Part shown: piece after piece, positions 54,168-64,000 of the stretch
Layout: each line of letters begins with the position of its first letter
Numbering within the stretch: the stretch's first letter is position 1
From: Clitopilus passeckerianus
Taxonomy: Eukaryota; Basidiomycota; Agaricomycetes; Agaricales; Entolomataceae
Length of the DNA stretch: 64,000 nucleotides
Direction of reading: 5' to 3'
Assembly: GCA_944990035.1 (NCBI GenBank)
Contig: CALYLX010000067.1
Location: forward strand, 310,001-374,000
The notes under the pieces: model-generated
What the model saw: the letters and a program-made list of their open reading frames with translations, nothing else
Database searches by the model: none
Told to the model about the DNA's origin: nothing
Program-made: the position numbers and the translations under genes

Positions 54168-55413
54168 ATGGCCGAACATCATTTCGTGCGTAATTCTGTC
54201 TGCTGTGAGTGGTTTGACGGTTCTGGATAGGAATGGATTGTACTTATCTGCACCATTTCGCAGTGGCAGCATTGATTTGTCTCGCTTGGGAGAGTGTGCT
54301 CACCTGCCGGAAGGAGTACAAGCATGTTTGGCGGTGAGCTGTCTTCAGAGTATGCAACCTCTCATTCAAGACTTACAATGTCCTCAGAGGCGGCTTCACA
54401 TTGGTTAAGTTGCTCTATCTATTCTCTCGATATGCAGGCCTTACAGTTCAAGTGTAAGTGGCCAGGTCGAACATCGAGCGCTTGTGTTCTGAAGCGTGCT
54501 CCAGAACTAATTGCGTTCTTCTGGCTGGACCTCTCTCGTATGACGTGCTGGATACACGAACATGCCGCAGATGGTTCGGCTTTCTGACTCTCTCTTCAAT
54601 ACTCCTCTGGGCAGCAATGGACTCAATCCTGGCTCTGCGAGGTGAGTCTGGCCTACATCTTGCCAGGCGACGCTCATTCCCTTTAGTGTACGCGTTATAT
54701 CGACGGGATTTGATCGCTGGTCGCTTTCTCCTCGGCTTTTTAACAATAATCTTTGTCCTCAATCTGGCGCTTGGAACGAAGGCCATTCTCAAGATAGACT
54801 ACGACTTTCGATGTGAAGCTGACGGTGGACCGATCGAGATCCTCTACTTCACGTATGTTCCTATCTACAACTAGCTCCGCTTCCAATTGGATTTTGATAT
54901 TTCCTCAGCTTTATCACCTTGTTAAAGCACTTGATATTATGGTCAATGTCACACAACCGAAAGCTATGGGTAGCACGGAATGAAGGGGCAACAGCCCCGC
55001 TAATAAAGCTAGTTACTCGAGATGCTGGATGGGTCTTTTTTGGGATTCTTGGTATGCATATCCTCGTATGCTCCGCTTGAAACACTCCTAATCTACAGTT
55101 AAGCTATGGTCGTAACCGTTGCTCCCTATACATTCCGCGTGCACGTCGCTGGGCATCTCATTTTTGTGTCAGTGAATCTCGCTTCAACCCTACATATTTA
55201 GTGTCTAACGACACCGAACTCCCACAGATGGCCAATAACATTTATGTCCATCTTTGTAAGTTTTGACGGTTCCGCATTTTACAGGGGACATACTCACCTA
55301 TCCCACTCTTTCAGACCTGCCGGCTTATTCTAAACATGCTAGCTCTACGTATACCCGATTCCGATACCTTTACCGAGCTGTCTACCTATCCTGGACAAAC
55401 CGATAACTCTTAA
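54168..55413 (+). CDS. DUF6533-type seven-helix membrane protein, copy 2
   Basis: Tandem paralogue of 51288-52548 with the same exon layout. MAEHHFVRNSVC joins to LAALICLAWESVLTCRKEYK, then VKLLYLFSRYAGLTVQV, NCVLLAGPLSYDVLDTR, LWAAMDSILALRVYALYRRD and ILKIDYDFRCEADGGPIEI. It continues WVFFGILAMVVTVAPYTF, WPITFMSIFTCRLILNM and ends GQTDNS at 55413. Every splice site and frame is intact, so this copy looks functional, unlike the SHPRH fragment duplicated with it. Coding segments are well conserved while introns have diverged strongly. The duplication is therefore not recent, and the protein has been under selection. Confidence 0.84.
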
Positions 55414-56088: not shown

Positions 56089-57319
56089 TTAAACCTCGGT
56101 ACCAAGCCCAATCGACTCCTTGTGTCCCGGCTTGAACGCCATCATGGAAAGAACCTCGTTCGATCCATCAGGGTCGTTATTTCTTGTGGCAGAACCATCC
56201 GAGTTGTAGTGGCTGCTCCCAAATCGAATCTTCGACAACTCCTGGTCGGATACTGTGTTTGCCGACCATGCTCGTCCACGGGCTACACGAAGGACAATCA
56301 GGATGGGCGCCATGCACTATCCGAAAGGATATGTCAGTCGCTGAGCGGTAGAAGTTCTGGAACTGAAACCTTACCTGAATCTGGATAAGAAGTGGGATGA
56401 ATAGATTTGCAGCCGTGTTATGCGATCCATACAAAGAGACGAAGATCAAGGAGACGACGCCATATGGGAGGGCGGACTCGAGTAGGACTGTTGCAATGTT
56501 TGAGTACATCCTGCCGTGATGGGAGCCTATCGCCGTTATAATCTTCTGTCGCATGTAGAGTAGCCGACCGATCAAAAGGCAGGTTAAAAGAATGTTCAAG
56601 CCCATGATTATTGAGAAGTATGGGACGGAGAAGTTGAGAGTTGTGTTTGCCCAGAGGCTTGACTGGGGACGGGAGGCCTGAACAGTAGTGAGGCAGCCAA
56701 ATACTAGAACAGTCGTCAGTAGAGCGAAGAGGTGTAAACGGGATGAAACGTACTCGTTGCGGCTAGCCACGCAAGGATAGGAACGGGTAAGATCCACCAA
56801 CGAGCATAGACAACATAAACACGGTAAATCTACACTTGTGGTCAAATTACAATTCGTCTTCTGAGCTAGGAGGCGACTTACCAGGAGAGCGTCCGCAAGG
56901 AAGCTAATCACGATCGACTCCGCATTTCCCGCAATATTTGTGGCAACAGCTTGTTGTTCAATCAAATAAGCCAGAGGTCCACCAGGGTATCCACGATTGT
57001 TGACATAGACCTCTTGACTAAACCGCATATTCAATGCAATGTTCACCGATCCCAAGCAGAAGAGAATCAGCACGAAGGCCAGCCAAGCCATGTTTCTTGA
57101 GCCATTCCGTGTTCGGTCGGTCACCAGGTAATACGAGCAAGTGCCGGCGACCGCAATGGTTAGACCTACGCGCAATGTCAAAAGTTAAACGGCACCGACA
57201 AGCTTCTGAGCAAGAGAAGACACTCACCGTAGCCGACAGCACCTAGGTAGACTGCTACGAAGTTCACCTGTTCGAGCCATAGCAATCCTGGAGGATCTTG
57301 AGTTGCGTAGGGGTTGGTC
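56089..57319 (-). CDS. Seven-helix membrane protein (third family member type)
   Basis: Integral membrane protein with the same overall layout as the pair at 14.5-17.6 kb, but more distant in sequence. It starts MTNPYATQDPPGLLWLEQVN at 57319, then LTIAVAGTCSYYLVT, WLAFVLILFCLGSVNIALN, IVISFLADALL joined to IYRVYVVYARWWILPVP, and TLNFSVPYFSIIMGLNILL. It continues ALPYGVVSLIFVSLYGSH, LFIPLLIQIQ-CMAPILIVLRVARG and a polar tail ending GLGTEV at 56089. About five introns keep frame, giving about 330 residues. The LADALL/IYR junction mirrors GDAIA/IYRCF of the other family members. Function is unknown. Confidence 0.8.
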
Positions 57320-57998
57320 ATGGTGAGCGGGGAGAACGACTTCGGCGTCCTAGTTCCGACGACATTGAATATATAAAGTGAAAAACGATGTCAAGCATCC
57401 TGACGACTGGAGCACTTGAAGCATGATAATCAAGGGCAGGAGAAAATGCTGCTCGGTGTTAGGCACTTACCCGGCACCAGTGGCTGACAAAGGTGATTCA
57501 ACATCAACTTTGCCAGCCGCAGCCAATGAGGGTAAGCGAAAGAAGGAAACTTGAGTGACATTGGCGTTTTGGTGCTCAACTTGTCGTGAAAAATTGATCT
57601 TTGATGAGTGGGGATTAGGCGCCAGAAAGGGCGGAAAAGACATAGTTCCTCAACATTGTAATGATTTCATTAAAGCTATCCGTCAGTATTCCACGGTGAG
57701 AACTCACAATACTTGGCTTCGTTCGGTATATATCACTATCACCATCGACGGAAGAACAGTTTAAGCAACCAATGAATGCCGACCTGAACCATCTCTGTGT
57801 TATGACTTGAACTTGGGGCAGAAAACTGTAGTTGGCAAATTATCATTAATTCCACCGCGCCTCCTAGAAATACATCATTCCGGTTGTTGGCCGGAAACAA
57901 CCTTTCGACTAGAATACATGCTCAACTACAACCGAATATTGCGAGCCTGAGCCCTATCCCAACCCACAAGCCAGTTTAATCGGGGTTCAGTGAGCCAA
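57320..57998. other. Intergenic region
   Basis: Upstream of the seven-helix gene and downstream of the His-tailed protein gene. No supported reading frame. Confidence 0.4.
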
Positions 57999-58367
57999 CT
58001 AGCCATTATGACTGTCCGCAGAGTGTGAATGTGTATGATGATGATCATTGGCATGATGGGTGGGTTCCATGGTGGGCGATTTCGGCAGGCCGTAAAAGAT
58101 ATCGGGCCTGGGCAGGTGATCGATATTCGTTGTCTTTTGAAGCAAAGATCGAGTTTTGAAAGTGACGACCGTATTTAGGGTTGCGAAGATGAAGACGAGG
58201 GCACAGAGGATGTAGAATAGGGTTACGGTCGTACTTGAGAGCGTCTTGGCTTTTGATTCTGGGATAAAATCCATTTCCGTGGATTCATCCTCGGCGGAGA
58301 CCAGCGGCTTCAACTCTGCGTTAGCACCTTGGAAGTCTCCATCGCTTAGAGATGCATAGTTCGACAT
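57999..58367 (-). CDS. Single-pass membrane protein with His-rich tail
   Basis: A 122-residue protein from an ATG at 58365-58367. It has a polar acidic head (residues 1-45), one clear helix (TLFYILCALVFIFATLNTVV, about 48-67), then the piece LPRPDIFYGLP and a His-rich end (HHANDHHHTHSHSADSHNG). Head, helix and the RPDxFxGL-like piece recall the N-terminal region of some basidiomycete membrane proteins, including the anchor of UstYa-like proteins, but the enzymatic part with HxxHC motifs is missing. The His cluster could bind metal ions. No intron is needed. It lies 2 kb before three UstYa-like genes, so a link to them is possible but unproven. Confidence 0.6.
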   Translation of the reverse strand: MSNYASLSDGDFQGANAELKPLVSAEDESTEMDFIPESKAKTLSSTTVTLFYILCALVFIFATLNTVVTFKTRSLLQKTTNIDHLPRPDIFYGLPKSPTMEPTHHANDHHHTHSHSADSHNG

Positions 58368-59657: not shown

Positions 59658-59863
59658 ATGCACGCATTCAGGCAGCTAATCACCGGGCTCGTTGTTGCGG
59701 TCCTTGCAATGAAGGTTGCTCATGCAGCGCCAGGTCAGTTTCCGTTTCGAATTGCCTTCTGGTATGAGCTCAACCCACCGCGTCACTAGTGGTCGAAACT
59801 GTGGATTGCGACGCAGAGGACCTGGAGAGACGTGGAACTGCCAACATTGCACTCTGTCTATGA
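59658..59863 (+). CDS. Small secreted peptide with a dibasic (Kex2-type) site
   Basis: Two exons (59658-59733 and 59790-59863) join in frame to a 49-residue peptide. The first 23-25 residues form a textbook signal peptide (MHAFRQLITGLVVAVLAMKV then AHAAP). The rest is VVETVDCDAEDLERRGTANI plus ALCL. The Arg-Arg pair would be cut by the Kex2 protease, freeing a nine-residue peptide GTANIALCL; two Cys are present in all. A TATA-like element and pyrimidine-rich stretch precede the ATG. The size, leader and dibasic site resemble precursors of secreted fungal peptides. There is no core repeat, unlike classic ustiloxin-type precursors. It is not a lipidated pheromone, since Cys is not at the fourth position from the end. 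A GTATGT...TCTCAG intron may follow in the 3' UTR. Confidence 0.5.
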
Positions 59864-60305
59864 CCGTTCTATGACCATGGTATGTTTCTCAGCTTGGATT
59901 GTCCCAGAATGGTACTGAGAACGTATCTCAGGGTCGACCAGTTCTATGGACGTTGAGAGGTGCCGTCCCTAGCACTGTAAGATGAAACGTGACAACTCGA
60001 TCCTGTGCAGCAACTGTGGAGAGCTGGATCTACACGGACAAAATGCTGCATATTATGACCAACATTATTCTTCGAGGGATTCCTCATTCATAGATGGGGA
60101 TATTGCTACGGCAGCTGTTCTTTAGAGTCGTTTAACGGAATCGTACAAACATGTATAATTAGCATCATTTCTGGAATCTCCAGTATATCGCCGTGTGCCT
60201 TGCTCAGCAATACCTGGTTCCATACCGTCATGACGAAGGTCCACGTCTAACAGTCGATGTAGCTCAGTACTCACCTCGTTCTATTCATGACACGATCGTT
60301 CGATT
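59864..60305. other. Intergenic region, small peptide to UstYa-like gene 1
   Basis: A probable untranslated intron (GTATGT at 59880 to CTCAG near 59930) is visible. No further coding sequence is supported. Confidence 0.35.
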
Positions 60306-60998
60306 ATGTTGACTATCCCGAAACTACGTTCTGAACGCACATTTCTCCTGGTCGTAACTCTGCTACTCGTCTCACTTGCTACGATCGTCTTTCGGGGTCA
60401 GATGACGCGACAGAATGTCCTCGCTGACAGAGAAAATTTCAGACTTGGCTCTTCTGAATCACTCGATGATGTTGTGGGTGAGTACAATCGGCTGGTATTC
60501 CGCTGTCGGAGGATTGAACATCGGATTCAAGTCACAAGCCATCCTCTGACCAAGAAATGGCGTATTTCGCCTCTAGAATCTGTCCACCTGCCTCTGGAGA
60601 ACACGCACCACTTGGATTTTGTAACACCCCTCGGTGACATGGAATGGAACGCGACTCTCCCCGCGGGCGGAGCCGTCGTCTACCTTGGGCCAAATAGGCA
60701 TGCCTACACTGTAGGGATGTTCCATCGGCTCAGATGTCTAAATATCATCCGCAAGAACCTTGCGGAATTCTACGCGGACGATTCTCCCGAAGCCAAGATA
60801 TCCCAGCCCACGTTGGTTCACCACTGCATGAACTATCTACGCCAAATGGTTCTATGCGATTCCGATGTGACGTTGGAGTCCATTCGTTCCGATCGTGGCA
60901 ATCATTTGACGACATGGGAGGTCACCCACGAATGCAAAGATTGGAGCGTTGTATACGAGGAAGCGGAGAAGAATTGGATGCTATTCAATGGGGTCTAG
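60306..60998 (+). CDS. UstYa-like (DUF3328) oxidase-type protein 1
   Basis: Membrane-anchored protein of the UstYa family, whose members catalyse oxidative cyclisation or other tailoring of peptides in ustiloxin-type pathways. The N-terminal helix lies at residues 12-28 (TFLLVVTLLLVSLATIVF). The family core shows YLGPNRHAYTVGMFHRLRCL, then LVHHCMNYLRQMVLCDSDVT, and ends with CKDWSVVYEEA. The second motif (HHCxxYLRQ) is canonical. The first reads HRLRC instead of HxxHC, so its second His is replaced by Arg, which could weaken catalysis. The frame is open without introns. A 54-bp in-frame intron with GTGAGT donor (about 60478-60531) may be removed, giving about 212 residues. Neighbours are a second UstYa-like gene in convergent orientation and a small secreted peptide gene. 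Confidence 0.88.
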   Translation: MLTIPKLRSERTFLLVVTLLLVSLATIVFRGQMTRQNVLADRENFRLGSSESLDDVVGEYNRLVFRCRRIEHRIQVTSHPLTKKWRISPLESVHLPLENTHHLDFVTPLGDMEWNATLPAGGAVVYLGPNRHAYTVGMFHRLRCLNIIRKNLAEFYADDSPEAKISQPTLVHHCMNYLRQMVLCDSDVTLESIRSDRGNHLTTWEVTHECKDWSVVYEEAEKNWMLFNGV

Positions 60999-61108
60999 TG
61001 AATGTCATGTAGTGTTGGCGCCATATTGCGATTGCATTAAGTGTACTTTTAGTTACTTCTCGACCGATATGGTCATGCTTCGTATTCAAAGATGACAATC
61101 CACGAGGT

Positions 61109-61742
61109 CTATCCTAGTGCATCTGCTTTCTGCGAGTTGTTCTCCCATTGAATTCTGTATCCATTCATCACCTGATAGACCTTCTCCCAATCCTTACAGA
61201 CATAACCGGCCGCCGTCCTATCTGTCTCGAAGTTTCTTTCTTCGAAATTTCCCGGCTCCAACGTAAGATCCGCCGAGCAGAGAGCAGATTGTCTGAGATA
61301 GTTTAGGCAGTGTTGAATGTGTCCTGGATTGGCTATACGCGCTTTACCGAATGCAAGGTTCAGCACTCGCAAGCAATGCATCTGGTGGAACATCGAGACC
61401 ATGAAGAGCCTATTTTCCGGCCCGAGCCTGACATAGCCGAAATCAGAACTTGTTAAGGAGAACCATTCGTCATCAGAGCTCTGGCCGAGTAGGGGATAGT
61501 GGACGGTTTCTTCTGCAATCATGAAAACATCTGGCAGCTCTTTGTGCGGGATGGGGAGCGTTGAAGGAAAGTCATGCCCGCGATATGCTATCATAGTCCA
61601 AAATCATGAGACAAAGTATCAGGAATCATTCAAAGAGACACGAACAGTAGGTTCTCTTTTCCCTGAGAGCCCAGACAATGTACAGCAAGCTCAGAAAACT
61701 GATTCCAAGCAGGACACAGGAGGTGAGGGGACGTTGACCCAT
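61109..61742 (-). CDS. UstYa-like (DUF3328) oxidase-type protein 2
   Basis: A second UstYa family protein. The first exon starts at 61742 (MGQRPLTSCVLLGISFLSLL, an N-terminal membrane helix). It joins across a short intron (GTTCGT donor, ATAG acceptor near 61593) to SYRGHDFPSTLPIPHKELPD. The core reads YVRLGPENRLFMVSMFHQMHC with the complete HxxHC motif, then HIQHCLNYLRQSALCSADLT with the second HxxHC-YLRQ motif, and VCKDWEKVYQV. It ends KADALG at 61109. About 190 residues is normal for the family. Both motifs are intact, so this copy should be catalytic. It converges with UstYa-like gene 1 (110 bp between stops), and the S33 hydrolase starts 397 bp beyond its start on the other strand. Confidence 0.9.
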
Positions 61743-62138
61743 GCTCGAACCGATTCGTGCGGGAGAGCAGTGCAACTGGATCCTGGTCTGTTCGTTGTTA
61801 TCGTATCCCTACCTGTATTATTTTTGCAGCTGCATTCGATACAGACGGAACCCCAGGTATACAATATAGTCAAGAGTCGTCAAGCCCTTGCCGAGATACG
61901 GCGCAGACCGAACGTGAAACCTTGAGCTTGAATCCCCAATGCGGAAGTTTTACCCACGGTTCTGTGATGTCTCCGAATGGAATGGACTGTCAACGAACTG
62001 TCACAAATTCACGGATCGCCGGTGCAATTGAAACTTTCGTCAGCTCATCTCCTCTTCCTCGTGGTTCGGTTCGAGTGGTTGAAGGGATTCTCCCCGTTAA
62101 AAGGTAAAGAAAGAAGATGTGATACTCTAGACGCCGTC
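61743..62138. promoter_or_regulatory. Divergent promoter, UstYa-like 2 and S33 hydrolase
   Basis: These 396 bp lie between two divergent start codons. An in-frame ATG at 61977 could extend the hydrolase by 54 residues, but that would bury its signal peptide, so I keep the later start. Confidence 0.4.
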
Positions 62139-63149
62139 ATGCTCGCCTTCAGTCGCCTTCAGTTGATCGTCTCTGCGACCGCGCTCTTGGTAGCAGCTTC
62201 GCCATTTAGCTCACACACAGAGTCGACTATCGCAGAAGGGTTTGCTCCCTTCCCCTATCAGGGAGAAACATACAGCACGTACTACAAGGTTATTGGGAAC
62301 CTGAAATCTCCCTCTCCTCCCGTTGTTGTACTACATGGCGGACCAGGTCTATCTCACGACTATTTGGCCCCGTTTGAGGACCTGGCAACGAAGTACAACC
62401 GTCCAGTTGTCCTCTATGATCAGCTGGGAAACGCGCGTTCTACTCACCTGGATGATAAGCCACAATCATTCTGGACATTCGACCTCTTTACCGGCGAACT
62501 CCAAAATCTTCTCTCACACCTTTCCATCGAGCGGTCATTCGACCTCGTGGGCCATTCTTGGGGTGGCATTCTCGCTTCGGAATTCGAAGTTCGCAAACAA
62601 CCCACTGGTTTGAAGCACCTCGTGCTTTCGGACGCTCCTTCTTCCGCAGCTCTTCAGTCGGAATCTCACCTTCAACTCCTGAAGGCGTTCCCGAAAGATG
62701 TGCAGGAAGGGTTCATTGGTGGGATGACCAATCCCACGGCATTCTACAATGCGCTGACCGTTTACTACGGAGTGCACGCGATGACCCTGAGGCCTGTGCC
62801 AACTGAATACAACTTTACGCTGAGCACAGTCTTTGGACCCCATGGTGATGTCACCGTCGCCAGTGCTCCGTGAGTAATGAGATGTCGACTACCCAAGTTC
62901 TCCCGCTAATCCGAACTCATGTTTAGGATCCTCCAAGATTGGACCATCGTTGATCGCCTCAGCGCAGTTCACGTCCCAACGCTGGTCATTAACGGCAAAA
63001 AAGATATTGTTCAAGACTTCGTCGTGGCGCCATTTGTTGAGAAGATTTCGAAAGCCAAGTGGGTCAAGTTCCAGGAATCAAGTCATACTCCTTTCTGGGA
63101 GGAACGAACCAAATACTTCGAAGTCTTGGACAAGTTCCTATCGGCGTAA
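62139..63149 (+). CDS. Secreted alpha/beta hydrolase, S33 proline-iminopeptidase-like
   Basis: Predicted peptidase or hydrolase of the S33 proline iminopeptidase family, which removes N-terminal proline from peptides. The start MLAFSRLQLIVSATALLVAA is a signal peptide. VVVLHGGPGLSHDY is the oxyanion loop (HGGPG, a family hallmark), and LYDQLGNARST follows. The nucleophile is in LVGHSWGGILASEF. The acid is in VINGKKDIVQDF, and the His in FQESSHTPFWEE. One intron (GTGAGT at about 62870 to TTTAG at about 62926) joins SAP to ILQDWTIVD. Total is about 318 residues, ending FLSA at 63149. Its place beside three UstYa-like genes and a short peptide gene makes a role in trimming a peptide product attractive. 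Small-molecule ester hydrolysis is also possible. Confidence 0.88.
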
Positions 63150-63626
63150 TGTGAGGAACCGAGGGCGAGGCAATCTAGAGATTTATTTACCATACGACAA
63201 CTGTACAAGCCATCTGATTATTCACCGACTTTCGCACTAAGCATGACGAAATACCCACTGACAAGTCCGAGGCGCAACATCCTTCCCAATCGAGAGTCAA
63301 GAACGCACCCAATTGGGATAAGCTGTCAACAGGAGCAAAAGGAGAAGATCTATGCCAACGGCTCTTTACACTCTGTGGGGAAGTGATTGAATGCTCCTAA
63401 GCGGTGAACGTAGAAGAACGTTCCATCTGAATGTTGAAGTAGTCTATACTCGTCTCCACGGACACACCCGTTTGGCGACTCACGCCAAAGATCCGGCGTT
63501 TTCGTATAGTTGCTACATGCATTTGTGACCACATGTGTGCGAACCTGAAGACCAATCAGCCCTCCCAATTGAACTGCTATCAGGGGCAGGGAGATCACAC
63601 TCACCCTTTCATTGAACACCATCGTC
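63150..63626. other. Intergenic region, S33 hydrolase to UstYa-like gene 3
   Basis: No supported gene. Minus-strand frames here are shadows. Confidence 0.4.
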
Positions 63627-64000
63627 ATGTACACTCGTCGAAGCGACAACGTCTATATCCTACCTGCTAGTGTCGTGCATACAGGGCTTGCCGTCCTAGT
63701 TCTATCACTGGTAGTCAACTTCGCAGAGACTTGGATCCGATTTGAGAGCCTGAGAGCAGGCACGATCCCAAGTAAGCCTCGCAAATACCCACACAAGACT
63801 CTATTGAACAGGAAAATTCCAGCGCAAAACTTTACTTGGGCCGAGAAGACGCCGAACCAACTTCCCATTGATGTGCGGCGAGTAGCATTGGAGGTGGTCG
63901 ACTCGGACCGATATGGGATGAATGCGACCAACGACTGGGCATCCATATTTCCTCGCGGTCTCGGCTTCGTGAAAGGAGGAGACGATGGAGAGTTCTACGC
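63627..64000 (+). CDS. UstYa-like (DUF3328) protein 3, cut by the window end
   Basis: From the ATG at 63627 the frame is open to the window edge (124 codons). It starts MYTRRSDNVYILPASVVHTG with an N-terminal helix (GLAVLVLSLVVNFAETW), then a linker. Next comes TWAEKTPNQLPIDVRRVALE, with SDRYGMNATNDWASIFPRGL and GFVKGGDDGEFYA. This layout, from W-x-x-x-x-P-x-x-L-P-I through DW-x-S-x-FPRG to GFV, is the segment that precedes the first HxxHC motif in UstYa proteins. The catalytic motifs would lie beyond the window. I treat it as a third family member by segment pattern, and the call depends on the missing part. Confidence 0.72.
   Translation, partial: MYTRRSDNVYILPASVVHTGLAVLVLSLVVNFAETWIRFESLRAGTIPSKPRKYPHKTLLNRKIPAQNFTWAEKTPNQLPIDVRRVALEVVDSDRYGMNATNDWASIFPRGLGFVKGGDDGEFY

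Follow-up and report, generated by a model that had tools for sequence, protein, structure and literature searches.

A small secreted peptide, encoded near the right end of a 64,000-nucleotide window of the Clitopilus passeckerianus genome (contig C67, CALYLX010000067.1, positions 310001-374000; GenBank assembly GCA_944990035.1, 64.8 Mb in 160 contigs), belongs to a conserved precursor family. Judging from sequence, each precursor gene is paired with genes for a histidine-rich protein (H) and a seven-helix, or seven-transmembrane (7TM), protein, in a cluster with a degenerate UstYa-type gene (UstYa-A), canonical UstYa-B and UstYa-C genes, a membrane protein (Y) and S33 peptidase genes. These genes form a real and conserved set that exceeds what was first described: the initial annotation had listed the peptide, the UstYa-like genes and the peptidase, and had omitted H and the 7TM protein, whose predicted fold is Ste2-like. 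These are the genes most closely tied to the peptide, and they point to signalling. The combination of a peptide, copper enzymes and a protein of predicted Ste2-like shape suggests a modified peptide signal. We give an even chance to the reading that the locus is dedicated to ribosomal-peptide signalling in an Agaricomycete, in which a Kex2-released, UstYa-modified peptide would have its own receptor.

The precursor gene (59658-59863, plus strand; exons 59658-59733 and 59790-59863) encodes 49 residues, MHAFRQLITGLVVAVLAMKVAHAAP VVETVDCDAEDLERR GTANIALCL, with one Arg-Arg site directly before the last nine (spliced product MHAFRQLITGLVVAVLAMKVAHAAPVVETVDCDAEDLERRGTANIALCL). The secreted 49-residue peptide with a single Arg-Arg site that had been predicted was borne out by its two exons, its paralogues and its conserved end, and its distance from the UstYa genes, given as about 440 bp, is 442 bp from its stop codon to the ATG of UstYa-A. 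A second, paralogous cluster on contig C139, with its allele on C59, contains two further precursor genes, MYFFKQMLASALLLLYGGSLVGAAPIAAEDTVECGVAKMAKRSTTSHLALCD and MKLFRQIIATIVLLCGTMSLANATPLPESEATVDCNEADLSRRSSTSHLALCN. All three genes present a 76-base first exon and then a phase-1 intron directly behind the signal part. They share a signal-like leader (judged from hydrophobicity only, not with SignalP) and a conserved V[DE]C; a single dibasic site then precedes a short end of 9-10 residues with ALC plus one residue (GTANIALCL, STTSHLALCD and SSTSHLALCN).

The short end is the best conserved part of the precursors. When the three allele pairs were compared, 12 of 92 residues differed before V[DE]C and 0 of 62 from V[DE]C on (Fisher 0.0017); in the window peptide, the C66 allele changes one residue, within the signal part. 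Raw dN/dS (nonsynonymous to synonymous rates) over the full coding sequence was 0.09, 0.68 and 0.41, and the first pair alone departed from neutrality on its own (p 0.014; others 0.51 and 0.35). The initial annotation had counted the single segment without a core repeat as a weakness. The single segment is real, as all three precursors have one segment after one dibasic site and no repeats, but its weight is lessened because this segment is what is best conserved.

The post-signal part of the window peptide aligned to the two C139 precursors with z of 5.9 and 8.6, scores that none of 20,000 shuffles reached. A genome search with exon 2 of the window peptide returned its own three copies only. 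The same search with exon 2 of MKLFRQIIATIVLLCGTMSLANATPLPESEATVDCNEADLSRRSSTSHLALCN returned four matches (itself, its own allele, the neighbouring precursor at E 0.001 and the neighbour's allele at 0.004) and not the window peptide. Since these searches never cross-match, the link between the C67 and C139 precursors rests on layout, position and alignment. A retuned precursor scan, which recovers 3/3 known precursors and covers 47 kb of four UstYa loci, yielded one further allele-conserved candidate of this layout, an unspliced frame antisense to UstYa-B. Two known kinds of peptide were tried and ruled out. The lipopeptide mating pheromones of basidiomycetes carry a C-terminal CaaX box, which is absent here (the ends are LCL, LCD and LCN, with Cys one residue from the end), and an alpha-factor-type precursor would show repeats and a Ste13 signature (XA or XP after the dibasic site), neither of which was found; the segments open with GT, ST and SS.

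Each precursor gene is accompanied by H, which sits upstream on the opposite strand, and beyond H by the multi-helix 7TM protein. In the window, H is a single exon (57999-58367, minus strand) of 122 aa with one hydrophobic stretch and 8 His among its last 20 residues; across the modules it measures 122-124 aa, with one hydrophobic stretch and 7-10 His among the last 20 residues. The 7TM gene (56089-57321, minus strand; exons 57321-57228, 57165-56882, 56829-56754, 56703-56375 and 56316-56089) gave a hand-spliced product of 336 aa. Genome-wide, all seven H matches fell at the three precursor modules and their copies, with none elsewhere. For the 7TM protein, 7 of 15 matches showed 65-100% identity and lay at precursor modules only, and the other eight did not exceed 36%. 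On C139 the 7TM-H-peptide unit occurs twice in tandem ahead of one UstYa set. From this evidence the peptide is tied to H and the 7TM protein.

The 7TM protein has 55 database homologues. Ste2 was the best VIA-align fold match for the two homologues that were modelled, and a check against Ste2 (class D1) found the class D helix arrangement in the models. With Foldseek alone, neither model had a match at E <= 0.001, and Ste2 ranked first for one and 12th for the other. Sequence searches for solved structures with the 7TM alignment returned none.

Next to the precursor lie the UstYa-type genes. UstYa-A (60306-60998, plus strand; exons 60306-60477 and 60532-60998; 212 aa; PF11807 E 9.6e-19), UstYa-C (plus strand, from 63627, cut by the window end at 64000 and ending at C67:374340; E 5.4e-25) and the second exon of UstYa-B (61594-61109; E 4.2e-16) all exceeded the PF11807 cut-off, so the three UstYa-like genes of the initial annotation stand. 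UstYa-B is on the minus strand (61109-61742; exons 61742-61646 and 61587-61109; 191 aa). The double HxxHC motif is canonical in UstYa-B (HQMHC and HIQHC), C and E, and degenerate in UstYa-A (HRLRC and LVHHC, with two of four histidines gone) and D (HQLEC and HLDFC). The C139 copies of UstYa-B and C are canonical as well (DNA read by eye). Among the 120 listed UstYa-A homologues, the first motif was recognised in 102, with Arg at the second His in 92 and His in 2; the query was of the A type, so this count reflects conservation inside the A branch and not independent losses. UstYa-A is a conserved variant. The copper-dependent DUF3328 enzyme CctR, which acts as a dimer with two copper ions bound to each monomer, is inactive when histidines or cysteines of HxxHC(x)nHxxHC are replaced by Ala (PMC12435403). 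We infer that UstYa-A and B might form a heterodimer. Sequence searches for solved structures with the UstYa alignment returned none.

The peptidase gene S33a (62139-63149, plus strand; exons 62139-62869 and 62927-63149; 317 aa) matched Abhydrolase_1 when scanned as open frame 61977-62873 and aligned over its full length to solved proline iminopeptidases (7a6g, E 4.5e-61, residues 27-307; 3wmr, E 8.2e-54, residues 32-315). With a hydrophobic N-terminus recognised by eye, it looks like the secreted proline-iminopeptidase-like enzyme predicted initially. At E <= 0.001, 7/7 matches of this S33 subfamily were in the C67 cluster (two genes), the C139 cluster (one) and their copies. Membrane protein Y, which has no Pfam match and no solved structure by sequence, gave 14/14 matches at four loci and their copies, namely C67, C139, C114/C8 and C4/C116, all with such a UstYa pair. 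Distant members may be missed at first look in both of these genome-wide searches. UstYa-A, B, C, Y and S33 recur in identical order in the two precursor-bearing clusters. The proposal of a basidiomycete ribosomal-peptide locus is therefore well upheld for the genes, as the precursor family sits with this set in two clusters, and partly upheld overall, modification of the peptide being putative.

We compared the positions of the 7TM and UstYa-A genes in other species, using 32 rows of the 7TM list and 27 of the UstYa-A list; species absent from the 7TM list and rows without an organism name were left out of the latter. The named homologues in both lists are, going by their names, presumably all Agaricomycetes. 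Synteny was called when the same species appeared with an equal-sized contig in both protein lists, of which the UstYa-A list shows 120 of 183 matches. The two genes were on one contig in 9 of the 12 species common to both lists (for instance tags AcW1_003139/003136, SCP_1502810/1502750, GY45DRAFT_1322808/1322804 and BDZ97DRAFT_1834589/1834579), and the chance of such sharing is about 7e-12, assuming 35-Mb genomes. Two or more 7TM copies per contig, resembling the C139 tandem, are also suggested in Gelatoporia, Laetiporus, Trametes cingulata and Taiwanofungus; in the last, the tags come from different assemblies and the call follows from equal-sized contig entries.

Modification by UstYa enzymes followed by reception by the 7TM protein is the most economical reading of these data, with about even odds of being right, and we infer every step from Kex2 cleavage onward. 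Kex2 would cleave the precursor in the Golgi, just behind its dibasic site. The UstYa copper enzymes probably modify the peptide: UstYa-B and C, which their homology to CctR suggests are copper oxidases and which perhaps act as A/B heterodimers, would oxidise or crosslink the released segment, presumably at the conserved Cys or at Leu, Ile or His carbons, because the segment lacks Tyr, Phe and Trp in all three precursors. H, a proposed copper donor, would supply or buffer copper, and S33 would trim the N-terminus. The peptide would then be secreted and sensed by the neighbouring protein of Ste2-like predicted fold. We tentatively extend this to a possible, though doubtful, second peptide-pheromone-like system of mushrooms besides the mating-type lipopeptides, made of a Kex2-released, copper-oxidase-modified 9-10-mer, an adjacent Ste2-fold receptor, an active UstYa-B with a pseudo-enzyme UstYa-A, and copper supply by H.

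Several observations weigh against a modified peptide with its own receptor. On the side of the receptor, hhalign detected no relation between the 7TM protein and Ste2. An exon-by-exon genome search with PF02116 (E <= 10) gave one weak match elsewhere and none at the 7TM gene, and PF02116 is absent from the Pfam listing for 44 7TM homologues, which shows 25 of 35 families. The fold comparison covers two homologues, both of this one mushroom 7TM family, and the Ste2 fold was also found in a distant 7TM homologue of unspecified context. As for modification, the non-aromatic core leaves no place for the aromatic side-chain crosslink of ustiloxin, phomopsin, asperipin and victorin (PMC9233826), and UstYa-A, the UstYa closest to the peptide, lacks two of the four copper-binding His of CctR. 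A precursor profile run against the protein database gave 58 candidates, none with E <= 10. The 7TM and UstYa-A genes were not on one contig in Hypholoma, Psilocybe cyanescens and Trametes sanguinea (3 of 12 species). Finally, the initial annotation had held that UstYa-like genes travelling without the peptide would speak against a peptide pathway, and this is partly the case. The C114/C8 locus (17 kb read) has a distant 7TM gene, Y and UstYa-A/B with no precursor of this layout and no H match; the C4/C116 locus (10 kb read) has Y and UstYa-A/B with no precursor of this layout, no 7TM match and no H match; and the retuned scan found no precursor kept in both alleles at either. UstYa/Y pairs thus also occur without this precursor family.

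These two loci speak for another explanation, that of two adjacent systems in which UstYa, Y and S33 act on another substrate and the 7TM-H-peptide unit is a separate module; UstYa-type enzymes are also described as modifying non-ribosomal peptides such as cyclochlorotine. We consider this quite improbable, as the order of UstYa-A, B, C, Y and S33 is identical in both precursor clusters and the 7TM and UstYa-A genes share a contig in most of the species compared. The UstYa enzymes might instead make a dikaritin-like ribosomal natural product for defence or as an antifeedant, with the 7TM protein regulating the cluster or sensing another ligand. UstYa genes, a Kex2-type precursor and a peptidase are indeed the dikaritin layout, and other classes of G-protein-coupled receptors (GPCRs) also occur within fungal biosynthetic clusters (PMC12842992). 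We think this unlikely, since H and the 7TM protein are bound to each precursor, including in the C139 tandem with its single UstYa set, and the short end is strongly kept between alleles rather than diversified. It is very improbable that the small open frame is an artefact or a relic: it has neither a Pfam match nor a database homologue, but three paralogues of shared exon layout, which are intact in every allele read and keep the end unchanged, rule out a chance frame.

The signalling reading can be compared with systems already known. A secreted precursor, a dibasic site, adjacent UstYa genes and a peptidase are also features of dikaritins (ustiloxin, phomopsin, asperipin-2a) and of other Kex2/DUF3328 peptides, whereas the present locus has a single short segment, an S33-type peptidase, a conserved degenerate UstYa-A and the paired H and 7TM genes. 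With yeast alpha-factor and Ste2 it shares a Kex2-type precursor and, in the modelled 7TM homologues, the best-matching fold; it differs in having no repeats, no Ste13-type start, no 7TM-Ste2 sequence relation and UstYa genes alongside. According to PMC12842992, Ste2 is reported from Ascomycota only. The same paper (section 3.5) presents DUF6534 proteins of Agaricomycotina, also seven-helix mushroom proteins, as candidate GPCRs; unlike these, the 7TM homologues show no DUF6534 in the Pfam listing for 44 of them, which names 25 of 35 families. The basidiomycete Kex2 peptides that show alpha-pheromone features (PMC6339444) are likewise secreted, and their authors speculate on unidentified GPCR partners. 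Those peptides were found through repeats and Ste13 signatures, whereas the family described here has neither and adjoins a candidate receptor. A survey of Kex2-processed repeat proteins counted 1680 in Basidiomycota, of which 103 had DUF3328 neighbours (PMC7329392); being repeat-dependent, it would overlook single-segment precursors of this kind. We found no earlier description of a UstYa locus with a GPCR-like gene in the literature searched, whose coverage leaves out most subscription journals.

A review asks whether dikaritin-type peptides arose from mating-pheromone peptide genes (PMC9233826). With a precursor, putative copper oxidases and a protein of predicted Ste2 fold at one locus, both this question of origin and that of the GPCRs (PMC6339444) become testable. 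The conserved UstYa-A/B split also offers a clear hypothesis for the paired occurrence of UstYa genes. If true, the second-pheromone-system reading would link dikaritin-type ribosomal peptides with peptide pheromone signalling.

The locus starts near 56089 and extends about 5.5 kb beyond the right end of the window. Reading C67 to the right of 64000 recovered the remainder of UstYa-C, then UstYa-D, UstYa-E and Y (each on the minus strand, from gene models and genome matches) and S33b, a second S33 gene on the plus strand with no obvious leader, up to C67:379542; further genes follow, among them an RRM protein. The locus is present again on C69 (99.94% identity across 15.6 kb) and on C66 (91.8% across 14.8 kb), which we interpret as a duplicated piece of the assembly and as the other haplotype, respectively. 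The open frame of UstYa-D spans 160 codons on C67 (374572-374892), against 214 on C69 (14993-15262) and 215 on C66 (1229810-1230082); the difference between C67 and C69 is likely one of assembly, because the two are otherwise 99.94% identical. Left of the locus, an open frame at 54458-54874 (plus strand) contains hydrophobic stretches and matches no Pfam family.

The C114 and C4 loci have one A-type gene each (HQLRC and HQLKC) and one canonical gene, and at C4/C116 a Cys/Met-metabolism pyridoxal-phosphate (PLP) enzyme gene lies between the two UstYa genes (L020 4902-5403, contig C4). The latter locus also has a small frame (L020 2141, minus strand, equal in L021 on C116) reading MQFFKAVTALVIFAVAQVVVATPAPGGGCPESDAEDDVLRPGCS after removal of a 54-bp intron. 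This candidate secreted peptide (MQFFKAV..., 44 aa if spliced) lies near UstYa-A/B and Y and is intact in both alleles. As a fourth family member it was rejected, as 1395, 1544 and 11,673 of 20,000 shuffles reached its scores against the three precursors, so it remains a candidate only. Many further PF11807 matches, split over several exons, were seen on contigs C142, C93, C94, C26 and C141 and apparently represent a different, expanded UstYa subfamily. Lastly, by eye, H and Y are alike in having an acidic N-terminus and a single hydrophobic stretch, followed by an LPRP/LRRP-like motif (stretches compared: window 58367-57999, L009 8832-7805 and L020 7126-7755), and H may be a shorter version of Y to which a His tail is added.

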